Positions 1,269-16,520 of a DNA stretch of 22,500 nt are shown here, in pieces. The translations under genes were made by a program, and so were the position numbers. The stretch is from the NCBI GenBank assembly GCA_018398765.1, contig JAHBMJ010000454.1, positions 1 through 22,500 of the forward strand, given 5' to 3'. Below the pieces are notes generated by a model. It worked only from the letters and a program-made list of their open reading frames with translations. It ran no database searches and was not told the origin of the DNA. Within the stretch, counting starts at the first letter, position 1, and every line of letters starts with the position of its first letter. This DNA is from Chromera velia. Lineage: Eukaryota > Sar > Chromeraceae.

Positions 1269-1697
1269 CTGCACTCCATTTAAAAAAAAAAAAAGAAAAA
1301 AAAAGAAACTTTTCGATCTTTGTTTTTTTTTTTATTCATCAACTGAAAAGTAAATGGTTTTCAATGCAACACCCCATATAACACTCTTACAACACTTGAA
1401 CAATAGTTGTTTGCCTATTAAACATGGTTAGGTCTGTTCAGACAGACAAACTACAGTGTTTTTACTAAAAATGCACTAATATTTTCACGTATATATAGTT
1501 TTCACGGTATATACTAATTTAATTAGCACTAAAGTTCACATGGTAAAAAATTAGTGTCTGTTAGTAATACTAAAATTTTTGTCAGTAATTTTTTAGTCAT
1601 ACTAAAAAAATTCTTTGTATTTTCATAGTAGCAATTTTAGTATTTATTTAGTAATGCTTAAGAAAGAAGCAATGCTTATTACCATAACTTTTAGTAA

Positions 1698-2028
1698 GTT
1701 GAAGTATAGGGTACCAGCCTGCCGCGTATCCATGCTTGCTTCTGGACCTACCAAGCCAAGCGTGCAGGCCGTACCACGCGGTGCTGAAGCACCGTGCTGG
1801 CTGGGATAGGATTGCCGCACGCGTATTCGATTTTGTATGATTTGTGCCGCACGCATTCAGCACCAGCCAGTTCAGATCGATCCATTTCGTGCAGCACTAG
1901 CTGATTGAACGCCTTTTGGCTGTTCGTTCTACTTTGCCTTGACGGACAGACTATTTTATGAAGTAGTTTCACCATCATGGAGATCTAGCTCTGCATTCCG
2001 TTTGACCATCATTTGGTCATTCTCTTTT
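1698..2028 (+). repeat. First 331-bp direct repeat (LTR-like), uninterrupted copy
   Basis: Begins GTTGAAGTATAGGGTACC and ends TCATTCTCTTTT. It aligns without gaps to the second copy once the hAT-like element is removed. Because it keeps AGTATAGG only once, it preserves the empty target site of that insertion. The short ORFs here are not conserved genes. Confidence 0.9.
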
Positions 2029-3249
2029 GCGGTTGACAGCGCTCTATTGTGTCCTATTTTGGTCAGTCTCCTCGTCTCCTCGTCTCTCCAGCTATCTTTT
2101 GCCCCACCTTTCTACTGCTTGGAAGCCATCCGTTCCAGTCAGAGGTGAAAATTACACCGTGAAATGAGAAAAGGTTTTCAGAAAGCTTTCTCCTTCCAAT
2201 CTGGAAGCTGTGGAGGATGGATCAACCTGCAGCCACTGCTGCGCCTGTAGGTCTCTGCTGGGAGACGTCATGTTGCACGATGATGTTCGTTTGTCGAAGA
2301 CTCCAACGTGGACGCCAGATGAAAAACTAAGTCTCCACTGTTCTCCCAAGCTCTTTCGGCTTCTCTCCCCAACAACATCACCCAGATCAAGCACGTGAAC
2401 AAGGACCGCCAGTAGCATGATTGCTGCCATTTTTGCCGAGAGCCGCCCTCACCTCAGCTGCCACCAGCTGCTGCCTGGACCGCACTGAACTGTCAGTGCA
2501 CCATCTGCTTGCAGTTGCTTTCCGGGCCACCAAGAGCTGAGAGTGCTGCAGCTTTTCTACTGCGACTTTGCTTGTCTGCTCGCCAAGGATCACAGAGGAA
2601 GGCAAAGTTTCGGAAGCGCCTCTTTGGAGGGGGGGGACTTTTGATAACTTTTTCATCCATGCTTGGTTGTCTCCGTATCTTCTGCCAGTCAACATCCATC
2701 CGTGTGTACACTGGAGTGAGGGGGGATACAAGGACGCTCCGCTGAGTTGCGAATGCAAGGTTTGCAGTATTTATTTTCTCTTCTTAGGCAGTGAGTGCAA
2801 ACTGTGTATGTAATCGAACTTTGATGGAGAAATATGCAAGGCGCGATTTGTTCTCTGTCTTTCTGTACAGCCACTGCATCGATTCTTTCTTTCCCTGTTG
2901 TTTTTCCAGTGTTGCGAAGCATATCTTTTCAAAGGCATCAGAGAGGCAGGACGAAAGAGGCAGACCGGAGATAGGTAGACTTATTAAAGTGGCAGACCAG
3001 AGTCAACTGATCTTGTGATGTCTAGCCCTCTACCTTGTTCTTGTGATGTCTAGCCCTCTGCTTCTCTGCATTCCGTTTGTGCATACTCTTCGATCAACGA
3101 CACCGGCAGGCAAGTGAAAACAAGAAAAGATTTTATTGGCTTTCAGGCAGTCAGACCAAAAGGCTGTTTCATTCCTTTTGTCTTTATCTTTCCCTGGTGT
3201 TTTGCTTCCGTTTCTTTCTCTTTGTATAGAAACGTAATCGAGGGGGGGA
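2029..3249. other. Internal region of the LTR-like element, no recognised gene
   Basis: About 1.2 kb of unique sequence between the direct repeats. The longest reading frame (minus, 2387-2758, 123 codons) has no motif I recognise and overlaps equally long frames on the other strand. A small tandem duplication of 28-bp period sits at 3012-3067, where CTTGTGATGTCTAGCCCTCT appears at 3012 and again at 3040. A purine run ends the region. Confidence 0.55.
3012..3067. repeat. Two-copy 28-bp tandem duplication
   Basis: CTTGTGATGTCTAGCCCTCT occurs at 3012 and 3040, with similar spacer bases between. Confidence 0.85.
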
Positions 3250-3309
3250 GTTGAAGTATAGGCAGGGTTGCCGATTTTTTTGGCGGTAGACAAGTTTCAT
3301 TACCAGTAA

Positions 3310-3323
3310 CCGGTAATTACCGG
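3310..3323. promoter_or_regulatory. Subterminal palindrome of the hAT-like element
   Basis: CCGGTAATTACCGG is a perfect 14-bp palindrome. A related cluster (TTACCGGTTACCGGCAATTG) lies near 4839-4858 at the other end. This is a candidate transposase-binding motif by analogy with hAT subterminal repeats. Confidence 0.5.
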
Positions 3324-3447
3324 CAGAGTTTGCTGGCAGTTGGCAAAGACTTGGCAGAATTCTAACAGTCACTAACACTTTTCAATAACCTAAGTCCTAG
3401 GTTATAGGTCAATCAATCAATCACTTAAGGCTACACTTACGGTCAAT

Positions 3448-3672
3448 TCAAAAAGTTAATGCATCATCTGTAGGGACAGCTATGCGGCCAGTGTGCTTGA
3501 AGATAACGCAGGTCGAAGCGATGGGTCCCGTCTTGTACTTGGCGCCCAAAGACAGAGAACCGCTGGCCGCAATAACCACAGCTGGCCCAGACAGATACAC
3601 CCACACGATTCCAACAACGGAAAGAATCCGCCTCAAAATTTGGGTGGTCCCCCCAATCAAGTGCTCCAGCCT
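3448..3672 (-). pseudogene. Possible captured terminal exon inside the hAT-like element
   Basis: On the minus strand, a pyrimidine-rich run ending TTCTTTAG (splice-acceptor-like) precedes an open frame of 74 codons that closes with TGA. The peptide starts RLEHLIGGTTQ and contains one hydrophobic segment (residues about 18-36, VGIVWVYLSGPAVVIAASG), then KTGPIASTCVIFKHTGR. It looks more protein-like than other frames in the element and could be a host exon carried by the transposon. I do not recognise the family. It may equally be a chance frame. Confidence 0.3.
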
Positions 3673-3779
3673 CTAAAGAAAGACCCACCACTAAAAGCTG
3701 ATGTCTGAGGCCTCGAAGGGCCTCTGACTCCGGAGAGTCTAACCCAGGAAGGTGGAGATTTGTCATCTGCAAGCAAGCA

Positions 3780-4200
3780 GACATGAAAGAATCATAAGTA
3801 AATAAGCGAACAGAGATAAGGAAAGCGAGTATGTGAACAAAAGGCGGTTGGGCGTTTGTAGAGACAGGGAGGGCAAGTATGTGAACAAAAGGTAATTGGG
3901 TTTGTGTGTGAGTAGATAGAGACAGGGAGAGCGAGTATGGGAACGAAAGGCGAGTGGACCTCTATAGAGAAGGTAAAAGAGAGGAGTCCGAAGAAAAGAG
4001 CGAGGAAGAAGAGGAGGAGAGGGGAGGGGATGAGGAGGAAGAGGTAGAAGACGATGTTGAGGCAAACGGGGGGGGCAGAGTAGAGGAAGAGGTGCAGGTA
4101 CAAGAAGAGGAGGCGGGGGAAGAAAGGCCCAGAAACCCGCCGCCTTCAGAGAGAAGAGAGAACAAAAGAGGGAGATGCAGCGTAGAAGAAGAAGGCTCTC
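3780..4200. repeat. Purine-rich (GA) low-complexity tract in the hAT-like element
   Basis: The plus strand is almost entirely purine from about 3965 to 4120. Three degenerate repeats of GCGAGTATGTGAACAAAAGG start near 3825, 3873 and 3931. The plus-strand frame (3954-4385) reads as Glu-rich and the minus frame as Pro/Leu-rich; neither is supported as a gene. Confidence 0.6.
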
Positions 4201-4907
4201 CAAAAAGAGCCATGATTCGTGTTCTCCCCCCCTCTGCCCCAGCCTCTGCTAGTGTTCGGTCCCCTCAGGTACCGGTCGCTCCGGCTTCTTTTTATAGCCA
4301 CGGTGCAGCAGCCGCATCCACCCCTTCCTCTTTCCGTCCAAGACCACCCAGCCCTAGACCCAGCCGCACCATGGGGGGAGCTTGAGGAGGCAATGTTCTT
4401 CTTGCTCCTCCCCTCTCAGCAAACCGGACAGGGGCTGCATAAGTACAGAGCCGCAGGCTTATCATCTCTTCGTTTTTCAGAAAGAAGTAGACTTTTTCCG
4501 TTTCTTACTTTGATCGCTCTCTAAAGACGGTCAAGGCCTGATATACAGAGAAGCAGAACAGTGAGACATGAAGCAAAATAAAAAAAGAGAGTAGTTGTTG
4601 GACAGACGCTGTCATAGAGCTGTTAGAACTTTTTGCCACTTATAGGGGTGAAGCAGTTAAAAATTTATATTTTTTTAATATTTTTTTTATTTTTTTGTGT
4701 GTGTGAATAGGCTTTTCAAATGCTAATAAACACTTAAAAACATGTTTTTGAAGGTTGGCACCGCAGGCGAAATTTTTTTTGGGGGACCCTAATTTTTATT
4801 ATTTTTTTTGTCGGTAAAAAGAAGGCAGACTGATGCCATTACCGGTTACCGGCAATTGTCGGTAGACTAGACCTGTTACCGACCAAAAAAGCAACCCTGA
4901 GTATAGG

Positions 4908-5225
4908 GTACCAGCCTGCCGTGTATCCATGCTTGCTTCTGGACCTACCGGGCCGAGCGTGCAGGCCGTGCCGCGCGGTGCCGAAGCGCCGTGCTGGCCA
5001 GGATAGGATTGCCGCGTGCGCATTCGATTTTGTACGATTTGTGCCGCGCGTATTCAGCACCAGCCAGTTTAGATCGATCCATTTCGTGCAGCACTAGCTG
5101 ATCGAACGCCTTTCGGCTGTTTGTTCTACTCTGCCTTAACAGACAGACTATTTCATAAAGTAGTTTTACCATCATGGAGATCTAGCTCTGCATTCTGTTT
5201 GACCATCATTTGATCATTCTCTTTT
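4908..5225 (+). repeat. Second direct repeat (LTR-like), main part, split by the hAT-like insert
   Basis: Continues the copy that starts at 3250-3262. Compared gap-free with the first repeat over 325 bp (4901-5225 against 1704-2028), I count 28 differences. All are transitions, in both directions, about half of them at CpG. It is followed by TAGTAA. Confidence 0.9.
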
Positions 5226-5713
5226 TAGTAATAATCGATCTAACAGTCAATGCATGTATGCGTCAACATTGTCTTCTTTATGTCTGTTTGGTCACGTGCA
5301 TGAGGTGACCAGTATATTCAATAGATCAAATACCAACCAAAGTAGGATAGAGGTTTCATAGATAGTTTAACTTAATTATAATATATACATATCAGTTCAC
5401 TTTGTACTGATTCACTTTACAGTGAATGTTACTAAGTAAAAAAAAGTACACACTGTGTAAAATACTCAAATTTTACTAGAGATTTTTTTTTTAATACTAA
5501 AATTTTACTATAAGAAAAAATATATTAATATTAAAAAAAATACTAAGTATATGTTAGTATACATCCAACTTTTACTAGTGCATGTTAAGTGAATCCACTG
5601 TAATTTGTCTGTCTGAACAGACCTAACCGTGAATGCTATAATAAATAAAAAAAGATTCTATAAAAAAAAACTTTTTCTCATCTTTTATTTCTTTTTTTAT
5701 GTAGTGCAGAGCC

Positions 5714-8208: not shown

Positions 8209-9901
8209 CACGCACGCACGCACGCACGCAGGCGGGAAGACTGACTGACAGACAGACCGACATCTATGTAGACCGACCCCATAAGAAATTCCAGCCTGGC
8301 GATGTCCCTGTCGAGTTTTTCTTCTTCGCTCATCTCCCTGTAGGGTTTCGCCTGTTTGTTCAGAAAGCTTCGTGGACGTGAGATGGAGTCTCTCACAGGA
8401 AAGAGTCCCTGCGGAGCCCGTGGGACGGGAGGAAGAGGAGGTGCCGCCCGCTGAGCTGCAGTGGGAGGCATGATATACGGCGGATAGACGGGCTGCGACA
8501 CTTGCTCTGCCTGGGGGGGAGGTATCAGCGGCGTTTGCGCCGGGGGCGCCACCTGCTGAGCTTGGGTGGGAGGCATGGTGAACGGCGCATGGACGGGCTG
8601 CGACACCTGCTGTGCATGGGGGGGAGGTATCAGCGGCGTCTGCGCAGAGGGCGGCACCTGCTGAGCTTGGGTGGGAGGCATGGTGAATGGCGCATGGGGG
8701 GGCTGCGACACCTGCTGTGCATGGGGGGGAGGTATCAGCGGCGTCTGCGCCGGGGGCGCCACCTGCTGAGCTTGGGTGGGAGGCATGGTGAACGGCGCAT
8801 GGACGGGCTGCGACACCTGCTGTGCCTGGGGGGGAGGTATCAGCGGCGTCTGTGCCGGGGGCGCCACTTGCTGAGCTTGGGTGGGAGGCATGGTGAACGG
8901 CGCATGGGGGGGCTGCGACACCTGCTGTGCCGGGGGTGGAGGTATCAGCGGCTTCTGCGCAGGGGGCGGCACCTGCTGAGCCTGGGAGGGAGGAAGGCCG
9001 GTCTGTGTGTGGGGGGGCGGGATTCGTTGCGGGTGTGAAGGAGGGCGATGAGCCTCGGTGGTGGGGGGAGGCTGGCCTCGTGCCTGTGAAGGGGTGGGTG
9101 CCGTGTGAGGTTGGGGGGTGGGGGCGAAAGTCTGAGAGGTGGATGGCGCCTGGGGCCCTGCCCTGTTGGCATTCGTTGATGGGGTGTGAGGGGGAACGGT
9201 GGTTTTTTGGGGGGTTTCATGTTGGTCTGAGGGGGTATTCCTCTTTGGAGTGTGTAGTTGATCTTGGTCTTTCGTGATTGGTTCCTGAACGTCGCCCTCG
9301 GACTCCTCCAAAGTTGGAGAGACCTGGTTAGTCTCTCCGTTTTTTGGAGAATCTCTTTGGGGCCTGGGGGGAGTCTTCACCCCGTTGACTGTCCATCCGG
9401 GTGGAGGCCTTTCTTCTTTCTCCTTGTTCGCGTTGTTCTCTGGAGGCTTGAACGCCATGTAGGCCTTCTTGAGAGCCCTACGAACAGAAAGGAGGGGAGG
9501 TGACAAGCCAGTTGACGAGTTTAGAAGAAGTTTCAAAGAAATGGACAGACACAGAGAGGGAGAGAGAGATACAACACATAGGTAGATCCATCTGTACCCA
9601 GAAACGTGTGCAACTTTTGGTAGACTTCATACAGAAGAACATGTAGCCAGACTGACTTGAACAGTTTCTCTCGCCACACGTCGTTGTTCCACGGGTTCCT
9701 TTTGCAGTTCGTGCAGTCAGGAGGTTCTCTCGGTGAGAGAAAGAGGGTGCTGAAGAACACAGCCGCCACTGCTGTTGGGATGAAAACCATGTAGAAGTAC
9801 ATCTTGAACTCTGCTCGAAACCAGTCATAGGTTGCAAGCATTCGAACTTGCCACCGCATCTCTGGGGTGAAATAGTCAGGGAAAAGGTCTTCGTAGTCCA
9901 T
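6598..9901 (-). CDS. Predicted single-pass membrane protein with Pro/Gln repeats and an RS/RE-rich region, four exons
   Basis: Function unknown. Proposed exons are 9901-9576, 9477-8278, 8013-7951 and 7282-6598. The reading phase is consistent across all junctions, giving about 757 aa. The start is the ATG at 9901 (context TTCAAAATGGAC); the frame is open upstream but without another ATG. Residues 1-33 are acidic and aromatic (MDYEDLFPDYF). Residues about 34-55 form a membrane segment (YFYMVFIPTAVAAVFFSTLFL). A CTNCKRNPW motif follows at 63-71. Exon 2 is Pro/Gln/Thr-rich with five 35-residue repeats, then a charged helix (MSEEEKLDRDIARLE) that runs on into exon 3 (GLLEEQKQRNEVVMEVA). Exon 4 has an Arg/Ser/Glu-rich tract and a His/Thr run, then a helix (FLEHLTEFQKGTERAMEKEE), and stops at 6598. 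Donors are GTGAGT at 7950 and GTCGGT at 8277. The exon 1 donor is the least certain: GTTGTA at 9575 fits the phase, while GTACAG at 9597 is a better site but would need a different acceptor. Confidence 0.62.
8161..8231. repeat. Compound microsatellite (CG)n(CA)n(CGCA)n in an intron
   Basis: Alternating purine-pyrimidine run: CG to about 8170, CA to about 8201, then CGCA units to about 8230. It lies in the intron between exons 2 and 3 of the gene at 6598-9901. On the sense strand it is a (GCGT)n(GT)n(GC)n run about 45 bases downstream of the donor, and is capable of Z-DNA. Confidence 0.95.
8469..8993 (-). repeat. Coding minisatellite: five 105-bp units (35-aa Pro/Gln repeats)
   Basis: GTGGGAGGCAT recurs at 8461, 8566, 8671, 8776 and 8881, an exact 105-bp spacing. 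On the minus strand each unit encodes 35 residues of the type PPTQAQQVAPPAQTPLI followed by PPPQAQQVSQPVHAPFTM. Units 2-4 are nearly identical; units 1 and 5 are more diverged. Unit length is kept in frame, as expected for a translated repeat. The long opposite-strand frame at 8502-9038 is its shadow. Confidence 0.95.
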
Positions 9902-10250
9902 TTTGAATGTCAGAAGGTGATGAGGGCCTGGAGTCGGAGGAGCAAACAAGGCCGTGCAGGCACGTGAACGTTCAGTCTGCAGAAGGATCAGTGGACGATC
10001 AACAGACAGAGCTTCGAGAAGCGTCTTTGTAGCAAACGCTCAGAACAGCCACTGATCTGACAAGCAATGAGAAAGATGTCGATCGATCAATCTCGCTTGC
10101 TTTCTACCTGTCCGAGCTTCCTTCGACTCTCTCAATCGATCTTGCTGCCCCTCGCGAGCTAGCTGGCAGCTTGTATGAGAATACGTGTCCCGGAAAGCGA
10201 AAAAGCCCTCAATTGCATGCACGCATGGCCCCGCCCGGAAAGTTCGTCGC

Positions 10251-10323: not shown

Positions 10324-10583
10324 TGTCACGGGACCTCCCTGAACCTAACTACCACTTGAAAGTTGAAGCCGCATTTTTAGACTAGCTTGAAAGTCTGCGC
10401 CGCAGGCGCGGATCAGTTACGCGCATTTACGGTGTCTTGAAAGCCAAGGCCGCATATCTGGACGGTGTCTTGACACTGTACGCCGCAAGCATGGACGGTC
10501 TCTTGAAAAACGATGCCGTAGATAGAGATTATCTTGATTATATTTTTTCAAGTGACACTTAGTTTCAGGGAGGTTTGTCACGG
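10324..10583. mobile_element. MITE copy 1 (10332-10575) with 8-bp target duplication
   Basis: Inverted ends: (G/A)ACCTCCCTGAA on the left and TTCAGGGAGGTT on the right. The flanks are a perfect 8-bp direct repeat, TGTCACGG, at 10324-10331 and 10576-10583. Internally CTTGA recurs at 10354, 10386, 10436, 10469, 10502 and 10533, mostly 31-33 bp apart, each followed some 7 bp later by GCCGCA or similar. No coding capacity. It is an inverted relative of the element at 10725-10958. The 8-bp duplication fits several superfamilies (hAT, MULE, P, Merlin); the ends do not look like typical hAT ends, so I leave it unassigned. Confidence 0.88.
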
Positions 10584-10716
10584 TGCTGGTTGCAAATTTC
10601 ACATGTGGTAACAATATGATCGGGAAAAACTGGACTATATTCACACTGCAGCACTTTATTACAGCAACTAGCAGCAAATCTTCTTCCTTCGATTCATTGT
10701 AGGAGGGGCTAAAACG

Positions 10717-10966
10717 GGCACAACAACCTCCCTGAACCTAAATACTACTTGAAAAAAAATAATTAAGATGATCTCTATCTGCGGCATCATTTTTCAAGAG
10801 ACTGTCCACACCTGCGGCGTAGCCAGTCAAAAGACCACCCAGATATGCGGCTTTAACTTTCAAGACACTGTAAATGATCCGCGCCAGCGGCGCGCACTTT
10901 CAAGCTTATCCAAAAATGCGGCTTAAACTTTCAAGTGGTAGTTAGGTTCAGGGAGGTTGGCACAAC
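10717..10966. mobile_element. MITE copy 2 (10725-10958), inverted relative to copy 1
   Basis: Ends AACCTCCCTGAACCTAA and TTAGGTTCAGGGAGGTT. The flanks are a perfect 8-bp direct repeat, GGCACAAC, at 10717-10724 and 10959-10966. Its reverse complement aligns with copy 1 along its whole length, including the CTTGAAAG...GCCGCA subrepeats, with mostly C/T and G/A differences. The two copies have different target duplications, so they are separate insertions rather than one duplicated block. Confidence 0.9.
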
Positions 10967-12632: not shown

Positions 12633-14036
12633 TCATGGGAGAATTTCATTCTCTGCCCCTCCCTCTTCTCCCTGACTCCCCTCCGCCTCACCCTTCAAGC
12701 TTTCAAACACAGGCGCTGCCTCCTCTATGAACCCCAACAACCCCTCCTTATTCCTGTCCCAATAGAAAGGCAACATGCGGGCAGGGGGCATCTTCGGTCG
12801 GGACAGCTCCAACGTGAACATGCGGGTATTTCGAAAATGATTCATGTAGTCTTGCTCACCCCCCCACACAGAATACCAGTCATACCCATTTGTAATTCCA
12901 TTATCGAATCGGGACATGTATCTAGGATCTACAGCGTGGGCAGCATCAGCATACTTCTTTGCCACCCTCCTCCACCATGCATCGTCAGGGTGCCTCTCTT
13001 GAATAGAGTCCCATGGGTAATTGATCACCTCGGCCCCCCCATGCATATTCACACCCAGAGTGAAGTTGTGGGTTCTCACGAAGTCCAAAAAGACCTCATT
13101 CTCTGTCTGAATCGGCCGACCTCCAGGAGGCCCCTCTGCCATAAGCATGTACGGATGATTTCTGTTCAAATCCAACCAATTGGAGTTGAACCGTCTCGCA
13201 CCCCTGATCGTAGTATCCCCCCCCGCATAGGTCCCATCAGGATTCCTCAAGGGAATGAACCAGAGCACGCTGGAGTTGACGATCGACTTCAACCGAGCGT
13301 CGGAGTCATACCCTTGCAACAAAGTCTGCACCAACTTCAGAGACAAAGGAAGCCCCACAACCTCGTCTCCGTGCATGTTAGCATCAAGCAACACGGAGGG
13401 TTTGTCGTCGTTGGCGTCTCCCGACACCCTCATGAGCAGAATCTCTCTGCCCAAGACGCTGTCCCCAATCTTCTCCACCCGACACAGGTCGGGACGCAGG
13501 GCGGCTAGCCCCCTGACCAGGCTTTTATAGCCTTCATAGGTCGGATAGGCAGAAAGCACGTCGGAGGTTGCGGTGAGCTTGTCAGACATCACAGGCGCCT
13601 CCCCCGTCTCGCTGGGTCGCTGCCTGAGTTGGAGACTGTGGACGACTGCGGAGGTGCTACTGCTACTGCTGCTGTCTGCCTTAGGGAGGGAAAGAGACTT
13701 CTGAGCCTCTCGGATGGAACCCCGAAGACTGAGCACATCAAACATGGAAGGCAGGGAAGCGGAAGGGGACCCTGTCTCCTTGGCTTCATGTTGGGGGTGC
13801 TGCTCTAGGAGGGCTTGGAAGTTCTCTGTGGAGGCATACGCAGTGACAGTGCGCGTGGCGACGTCAATGGAGTCGATGGAGAGTTGCAAGTGCTGCACCA
13901 ACCGGTTGAGGGCAGAGAGCTCATTTATCTGGAAGGAGAAAAAGACTTCGTCTGTAGACAGAGAGAAGACTGAGCTCGACTGGAGTGTGTAAAGGAGGAG
14001 ACAGGGCAAGAGGGGCAAGAGGGAAGGGACCCTCAT
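12633..14036 (-). CDS. M14-family zinc carboxypeptidase, secreted, intronless
   Basis: A metallo-carboxypeptidase that removes C-terminal residues from peptides. The start is the ATG at 14036 (467 aa); the frame runs open to 14156, but only a GTG lies there, whereas this ATG opens directly into a signal peptide (residues 1-25, SLLPLLPCLLLYTL). Residues 30-80 form a small N-terminal domain (EVFFSFQI...VTAYAST), followed by a Ser-rich linker (residues 122-130). The catalytic domain starts near AYPTYEGY (163). Zinc ligands are H222 and E225 in MHGDEVVG and H332 in NMHGGAEVINYPWD. The substrate-binding Asn-Arg is N291-R292 in LDLNRN. The catalytic base is E410 in FTLELS. RNPDGTYAGG (264-273) and NGITNGYDWYSVWGGEQDY (379-397) are typical of the M14B-like branch. 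All key residues are present, so it is likely active in the secretory, vacuolar or extracellular space. The C-terminal tail (450-467) is acidic. The single uninterrupted exon contrasts with the intron-rich neighbours. Confidence 0.95.
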   Translation of the reverse strand: MRVPSLLPLLPCLLLYTLQSSSVFSLSTDEVFFSFQINELSALNRLVQHLQLSIDSIDVATRTVTAYASTENFQALLEQHPQHEAKETGSPSASLPSMFDVLSLRGSIREAQKSLSLPKADSSSSSSTSAVVHSLQLRQRPSETGEAPVMSDKLTATSDVLSAYPTYEGYKSLVRGLAALRPDLCRVEKIGDSVLGREILLMRVSGDANDDKPSVLLDANMHGDEVVGLPLSLKLVQTLLQGYDSDARLKSIVNSSVLWFIPLRNPDGTYAGGDTTIRGARRFNSNWLDLNRNHPYMLMAEGPPGGRPIQTENEVFLDFVRTHNFTLGVNMHGGAEVINYPWDSIQERHPDDAWWRRVAKKYADAAHAVDPRYMSRFDNGITNGYDWYSVWGGEQDYMNHFRNTRMFTLELSRPKMPPARMLPFYWDRNKEGLLGFIEEAAPVFESLKGEAEGSQGEEGGAENEILP

Positions 14037-14156
14037 CTCCCTTGCAGCTGGAGTGAGTGATTCGCTTCTTTTGTCTGCTGAGTCTCTTTGCCTGCAGCCA
14101 ATTTCAATCTCTCTCTGCAAAAGAACCAGAGCGTCTGGAAAGGATCTGATCGCCAC

Positions 14157-15599: not shown

Positions 15600-16520
15600 G
15601 AAAAAACAGGTCGAAAAAGGTGACCCCCTATCCCCTCTTCTGTTCTTGATTTTTATTCAGGACCTCCATGAGAGAGTGAAGGCATCTGCACTACAGTAGT
15701 GCGAATGTCGTGCTCGGCGGTGTTGAGTGCGACAGCCTCGGATATGCGGACGCCTTTGTGCCTTTGGCTGAATCCGTGCAAGACTTCCAGGTGAGTCAGT
15801 CTGGATCGATGAGTTGAATGCATGCCTTTGGTCAAGAGAGAGGCCTCACTGTTGATCTAACAAAGGCGAAAGTCATGCGTCTGTCCGATCGGATTCCCTG
15901 TTTTTGATAGAAAGGAGGTCGAAAGAGCCTATAAAGTCCTACAAATATCTGGGTATTAATTCTTTTGTTTAAAGGAGGCAATTTGAAGAAGCTGATTGAA
16001 GAAACACTCAGAGTAGCCGACAGGCAGAAAGATTTGGCATGCACAAGATTTGGACCTTTCATTAGGACACCTTCTCCCTGCAGGAGAAGTCGACAATGTG
16101 TGTCCCTGTGCATTCTGGCTATCGCTACCACCGTTGCTTTATACCATTTGACAGCCCTACCATCCTTCAGTCAGACTTGGATGCCTTGAATGTCCTCCGA
16201 TTGCGTTTTTTTCGTTGGGTACTGAGTCTGTCTTACTCTTCTTTCCATTTTTTTCCGTCAACCCACTGTATGCTATTGGTCGACACCAAGGCCGGATTGT
16301 TCTAGCTCCAGCGCCGCCGCATCGTCTTCGTGGACCATGGTCTCCTGTTTATCATGCCTGCATGTACATGACATTGTTGCCGCGTGGTATCTGAATGGCT
16401 GGATGCCTTCCAATCTCAGAATACCGGCAGACATCTGAGCTGTCTTGATGAATGGTACTTGTCCCACCGCAATGATGTACGGCGCATACAAGTTGGTTGG
16501 GTGGATGCCGCGTGACTGGG
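15600..16520 (+). pseudogene. Decayed non-LTR retrotransposon (LINE) reverse transcriptase
   Basis: GDPLSPLLFLIFIQDL at 15619-15666 matches the RT palm motif of LINE elements (usual form QGDPLSPLLF). The catalytic box, normally YADD, reads LGYADAFVPLAES near 15737-15775, so the second Asp is lost. GLTVDLTKAKVM (15842-15877) and YKYLGI (15940-15957) follow in the order usual for LINE RTs. These motifs fall in different frames (one shift between the first and second, another before YKYLGI) and stops intervene. A last open stretch, SEWLDAFQSQNTGRHLSCLDEW..., ends at a TGA near 16512, followed by an A-rich tail (16553-16575). Endonuclease and upstream RT motifs are missing, consistent with 5' truncation. 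Inactive. Confidence 0.78.

Follow-up and report, generated by a model that had tools for sequence, protein, structure and literature searches.

Small non-coding long terminal repeat (LTR) elements have been described in more than one form. Terminal-repeat retrotransposons in miniature (TRIMs) are reported to be flanked by duplications of 4-6 bp and to hold no retrotransposon proteins (PMC4717578), and retrozymes, non-autonomous plant elements with hammerhead ribozymes, are described in J. curcas as having LTRs of ∼330 bp around a non-coding interior (PMC4918200). In fungal transposable elements (TEs), CpG-type C-to-T signatures have been ascribed to deamination of methyl-cytosine and not to repeat-induced point mutation (RIP) (PMC4352252). 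In Symbiodinium, methylation is reported to lie mostly at CG, with low CH methylation (H being any base other than G) enriched on TEs (PMC5890265), and Chromera is reported to carry about 30 Mb of TEs (PMC4501334). Here, we analysed 22,500 nucleotides of Chromera velia DNA (contig JAHBMJ010000454.1, positions 1 to 22,500; the window), in which two direct repeats, apparently the LTRs of one small retroelement at 1698-5225, differ by transitions and by nothing else. As judged from the sequence, these differences probably reflect decay of methylated cytosine at CpG and, less, at CpA in a fairly young LTR element.

Differences between the two repeats

The alignment of 1703-2028 with 4900-5225 spans 326 bases free of gaps, or 331 bp once the cut-off start of copy 2, left of an insertion, is included. 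The repeats are 91% identical, and the 28 differences comprise 28 transitions (C/T 15, G/A 13), 0 transversions and 0 indels, which places the one-sided 95% upper bound of the transversion share at 10% (0/28). Copy 1 carries T or A at 16 of these sites and copy 2 at the other 12, and at the CpG dyad 1802/1803 one strand has changed in copy 1 and the other strand in copy 2. An earlier note on this DNA had counted 28 differences over 325 ungapped bases, all transitions and divided about 16 against 12, and our alignment, one base longer, agrees with it on the other points. It took the repeats for direct-repeat copies, and the pair is real; the note overlooked that they appear to be the LTRs of one element.

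Counted with C or G as ancestral, a direction assumed without an outgroup, the changed sites amount to 17/60 at CpG, 8/46 at CpA, 2/37 at CpC and 1/38 at CpT, or 28/179 C/G sites in total. The 17 of 28 at CpG match the note's estimate of about half, and CpG sites changed more often than the other C/G sites (11/119, P=0.0018), as did CpA compared with CpC and CpT together (P=0.02). The concentration at pyrimidine-purine (YpR) steps requires no assumption of direction: 25/174 YpR sites changed, against 3/150 pyrimidine-pyrimidine (YpY) ones (P=4e-5). Sorted into plant-style classes, changes fell on CG at 17/60, CHG at 3/46 and CHH at 8/73, and no preference for CHG was seen among the LTR changes. 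Parallel loss of CpG as the origin of the CpA class was considered and judged too rare, a hand estimate giving ∼0.3 of the 8 sites.

How unusual a ratio of 28:0 is can be gauged from other repeats in the window. Aligned over 233 bases, the long imperfect inverted arms of a foldback-like element at 10333-10957 differ by 22 transitions, 11 transversions and one indel of 10 bases (Fisher P=0.0005 against the LTR pair). A tandem array at 127-1268 is built of AT-rich units of 356 bp, ∼97% alike, of which three are full and one is partial; among the full units, 15 sites vary by transition and 4 by transversion (P=0.022, to be read, like any P near 0.02 here, with a factor of about five, the LTR pair having been picked as extreme among a handful of repeat families). 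Pooled, the two families give 37:15 (Fisher P=0.0008). Neighbouring 105-bp coding units, compared in five pairs, gave 20:17 (P=9e-6), although these units are coding and hence possibly under selection as a control. The inverted ends of an enclosing AT-rich element gave 4:4, the ends of a nested hAT-like element 2:0 over 19 bases, and three 48-bp units within the latter 8:0 (one indel), 4:1 and 3:1 in pairwise comparison. These last comparisons are small, and they lean to transitions too, which argues against the LTR pair standing alone.

For a data set of one element and 28 changes, the probability of no transversion is 1.2e-5 if two-thirds of mutations are transitions, 0.0019 at 80% and 0.011 at 85%. 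The last value leaves some room for chance acting on an ordinary bias, if a fairly strong one, with transitions making up about 75-85% of changes in the absence of special methylation, and the tandem array (15:4) and the 48-bp units, whose three comparisons sum to 15:2 without being independent, lean in that direction. Such a bias would, however, leave both the YpR concentration (P=4e-5) and the CpG excess (P=0.0018) unaccounted for, and we regard this explanation as unlikely.

A similar context preference appears outside the LTRs. In the foldback, 14/93 YpR against 7/115 YpY sites differed (P=0.04), and in the tandem array 11/185 against 4/161 (P=0.18, not significant). CpA exceeded CpC and CpT in the foldback (7/23 against 7/53, P=0.11) and in the array (9/41 against 4/47, P=0.13); a stratified test gave P=0.001 for LTRs, foldback and array together and P=0.023 when the LTRs were left out. 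As the preference for CpA is also present, more weakly, in these unrelated repeats, it is probably no peculiarity of the LTRs and speaks for a general process of cytosine decay. Within the array, polarity assigned by majority rule gave 10 C-to-T or G-to-A changes and 5 in reverse. The observed/expected ratio of CpG was 0.91 and 1.11 in the LTR copies, 0.59 in the interior between them, 0.33-0.50 in AT-rich repeats, 0.46-0.84 in gene-like stretches and 0.70 in the whole window. The LTRs thus still have CpG left to lose.

Candidate mechanisms

That the changes are strand-symmetric (15:13) and affect both copies is consistent with methylated cytosine deaminating in double-stranded DNA once the element had inserted. 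Transitions alone would also result from editing before integration, by an APOBEC-like activity on cDNA or an ADAR-like activity on RNA. Such editing is expected to be one-sided, whereas here both strands (15 C-type and 13 G-type changes) and both copies (16 and 12) are affected, which makes it extremely unlikely. No strand-coordinated tract was significant: a shift from G-type to C-type changes along copy 1 was suggestive but reached P=0.06, and copy 2 gave P=0.18. The number of strand switches along the copies was ordinary (P=0.42 and 0.45), as was that of switches between the copies carrying T or A (P=0.31). The copy bearing T or A does tend to be copy 1 toward the 5' side of the LTR and copy 2 toward the 3' side (Mann-Whitney P=0.015, post hoc).

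A transition-only spectrum without indels might in principle be kept by selection on a conserved structured RNA, in which pairing would let pass mainly changes of the G-C/G-U/A-U type. Each LTR copy does fold better than every one of its 100 shuffles (z -3.9 and -2.7 for copies 1 and 2), and among the 101 pairs of the consensus fold none is broken and one is compensated. Random C-to-T changes reproduce this, however: 300/300 simulations had no broken consensus pair and 269/300 at least one compensated pair. The fold of one copy imposed on the other breaks 11/32 changed pairs (0.34, against 0.39 in simulations, P=0.30), 16/28 changes lie in unpaired columns, which should tolerate transversions, and no Rfam family was matched at its gathering score, the three weak matches in 1400-5700 being far below theirs. 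Selection on RNA structure is therefore unsupported and, by simulation, not needed; we consider it very improbable.

The earlier note had attributed the pattern to cytosine deamination, by either methylation decay or a RIP-like process, and deamination fits, as the changes concentrate at YpR sites, show strand symmetry and affect each copy. Between the two options, our data favour methylation decay and disfavour a RIP-like process, in which a host senses duplicated DNA and changes C to T in a burst, with CpA among the favoured sites. RIP proper is premeiotic, limited to repeats and dependent on a RID-type enzyme. A RIP-like process would account for the purity of the spectrum: all 28 changes are transitions, and all would be C:G to T:A in the assumed direction. 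A ratio of 28:0 is within the range given for fungal TEs (means 2 to 25.7, three massively TE-invaded species excepted) and unlike the 1.2 of A. thaliana, and the TEs of Tuber melanosporum are likewise reported to be changed at CpG first and CpA second (PMC4352252). The excess of CpA over CpC and CpT in the LTRs (P=0.02) points the same way, and diatoms encode DNMT4 enzymes, of function given as unknown, that possibly cluster with RID, the RIP enzyme of fungi (PMC9998398). Against this, the density of change is low, at 28/179 C/G sites in copies still 91% identical; CpG (17/60) is above CpA (8/46), so CpA is not the main target as it is in most RIP fungi; the interior has a GC content of 0.488; strand-coordinated tracts are not significant (P=0.06, 0.18); and the CpA preference of the two other repeat families together (P=0.023) suggests a general mutation context. 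Published work also weighs against it: the DNMT4 authors found none beyond diatoms in their transcriptome database (PMC9998398), a fungal survey saw repeat-enriched signatures in ascomycetes alone (PMC12543289), and the TE study that supplies the comparisons above itself credits CpG signatures to methyl-cytosine deamination (PMC4352252). No report of a RIP-like process outside fungi was noticed in the titles or abstract openings of the matches listed, which is no claim of absence. We judge a RIP-like process improbable here. A specific version, in which an enzyme-driven, repeat-directed C-to-T system outside fungi, for example a DNMT4/RID-type methyltransferase in a protist, hit the LTR element at CpG and CpA and the purity records a burst and not slow decay, is a long shot.

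Decay of methylated cytosine would proceed as follows. Both LTRs would have been identical at insertion, so that the 28 changes would be later mutations. The host would methylate cytosines in such repeats, mainly at CpG and more weakly at CpA; 5-methylcytosine would deaminate to thymine independently in each LTR copy, and methylated sites would mutate so much faster than the rest that 28 transitions accrued before the first transversion or indel. Several points weigh against this model. The polarity underlying the dinucleotide counts is an assumed one. CpG depletion is general in the window and not special to repeats. Outside CpG, too, each of the 11 changes is a transition (binomial 0.024; Fisher 0.053 against the pooled controls), and CpG decay alone fails to explain them, so CpA or another context must be hypermutable; weaker decay at CpA, to which 8/11 of them belong, would account for their purity. 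Finally, plant TEs, which are methylated, show a milder transition bias, the mean transition:transversion ratio being reported as 1.2 for A. thaliana TE families (PMC4352252) and the counts as 431:156 for wheat TEs, with a ∼2-fold excess in wheat LTRs (PMC2996936).

Anatomy of the element and its surroundings

The pair has the appearance of LTRs belonging to a single small, dead, apparently non-coding and non-autonomous retroelement of ∼1.9 kb without its nested insertion. The 5' LTR (331 bp, 1698-2028, + strand; 326 bp of it aligned with the larger part of the second LTR) and its partner enclose, as direct terminal repeats, an internal region of ∼1.2 kb (2029-3249, +) without a coding domain recognisable by open reading frame (ORF) scan. 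This region ends in a polypurine tract, AGGGGGGGA (3241-3249, +), directly before the second LTR, and the stretch at 3241-3262 reads AGGGGGGGAGTTGAAGTATAGG. The first 13 bases of the 3' LTR (3250-3262, +) repeat the start of the 5' LTR, GTTGAAGTATAGG standing at 1698-1710 and 3250-3262. The start of copy 2 thus lies 1.6 kb upstream of its main block, which resumes at 4900 and carries the 28 transitions (4900-5225, +). Outside both copies stands a candidate target-site duplication, TAGTAA, on the left at 1692-1697 (+; extending to TTTTAGTAA at 1689-1697) and on the right at 5226-5231 (+). TAGTAA occurs 4 times in 563 bases of the AT-rich flank, both candidates included, and a chance match is unlikely. 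We assign the repeats to one LTR element because of the ungapped direct repeats, the purine tract, the nested insertion with its own 8-bp duplication, and TAGTAA outside both copies.

The case for LTRs is good but not proven, and four points count against it. In the sequence from 2029 on, inspection by eye revealed no primer-binding site, and the repeat ends read GTTGAAG...CTCTTTT, not TG...CA, although TG...CA ends are usual and not universal among LTRs. Neither gag nor pol was recognised in the element: among the 24 stop-to-stop ORFs of at least 45 aa overlapping the interior, 15, including the five longest, were scanned and reached no Pfam cut-off. The LTR assignment is also made from a single copy of the element. 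Weak Pfam matches that stayed under the cut-off, with a lowest E of 0.0099 across 17 residues, were regarded as chance. An exact LTR pattern had 0 matches in viral_contigs, a viral collection that says little about further copies.

Copy 2 is split by a hAT-like, apparently non-autonomous DNA transposon of 1,637 bp (3263-4899) with the short inverted ends CAGGGTTGC / GCAACCCTG. Like hAT transposons, it is flanked by an exact 8-bp target duplication, AGTATAGG, at 3255-3262 (+) and 4900-4907 (+); its placement in the hAT superfamily is made from the ends and the duplication only. It differs from hAT transposons in lacking a transposase domain: all 15/15 ORFs of at least 45 aa wholly inside 3263-4899 reached no Pfam cut-off, three of them giving five unrelated matches below it and the others none. 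This absence is consistent with a non-autonomous hAT-like copy. The three degenerate 48-bp units lie within it, at 3812-3965.

The LTR element in turn seems to have inserted into an AT-rich element (1423-5631) bounded by 59-bp inverted repeats, 86% alike, at 1423-1481 (+) and 5573-5631 (-). By eye, no clear target duplication was recognised around the AT-rich element. An exact pattern of its outer inverted end had 0 matches in viral_contigs and 0 in genome_contigs, which are viral and prokaryotic collections and little informative here.

Elsewhere in the window, a 507-aa ORF at 12633-14156 (-) carries a Peptidase_M14 zinc carboxypeptidase domain (Pfam E 1.5e-49), its best solved-structure match being a carboxypeptidase gp180 fragment. 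The 105-bp coding repeats at 8332-9123 (-) encode proline/glutamine-rich units of 35 aa. Their ORF appears to continue into the one at 9533-9949 across a GT-AG intron; this intron, read by eye, is the only eukaryotic sign seen directly in the window. A frame at 15600-15700 (+) reads GDPLSPLLFLIFIQDLHERV, which resembles a reverse-transcriptase motif of a decayed non-LTR element; the four ORFs tested gave no Pfam match.

Comparison with known systems

In structure, the element resembles the TRIM (or SMART) class in having an LTR at each end, a short interior in which no coding domain was recognised, a purine tract and a short target duplication, the candidate here being 6 bp. It differs in size, at ∼1.9 kb without the insertion against <1,000 bp for TRIMs, in the absence of a recognisable primer-binding site, and in ends other than TG...CA. 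With retrozymes it shares the LTR length (∼330 bp; 331 here) and a non-coding interior, which is longer here (1.2 kb against about 300-600 bp). A hammerhead core pattern had 2 matches in the window against 2.76 expected, both outside the LTR element, and there was no Rfam match at gathering score; with no hammerhead found in the element, identity with a retrozyme was rejected.

In mutation pattern, the LTR pair resembles fungal RIP in having transitions only, in a repeat, with CpA over CpC and CpT; it differs in that CpG is above CpA, the density of changes is low, and strand tracts are not significant. By analogy a RIP-like system outside fungi is conceivable, and, if the changes were repeat-directed, they would represent a RIP-like defence outside that kingdom. 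If CpG and CpA decay instead proved to be genome-wide, LTR pairs in this organism would keep a record of its DNA methylation contexts that needs only the sequence to be read, and standard LTR dating would give ages that are too high.

Decay of methylated cytosine in a protist repeat would, given the methylation reported in Symbiodinium, be unsurprising. As in methylated transposons that decay, differences of the C/T and G/A type are in excess at CpG, on either strand; the pair differs from them in showing 0/28 transversions and CpA as the second context, where wheat LTRs have a ratio of ∼2:1. Overall, the purity of the transition pattern is unusual, though the decay would be of a known kind.

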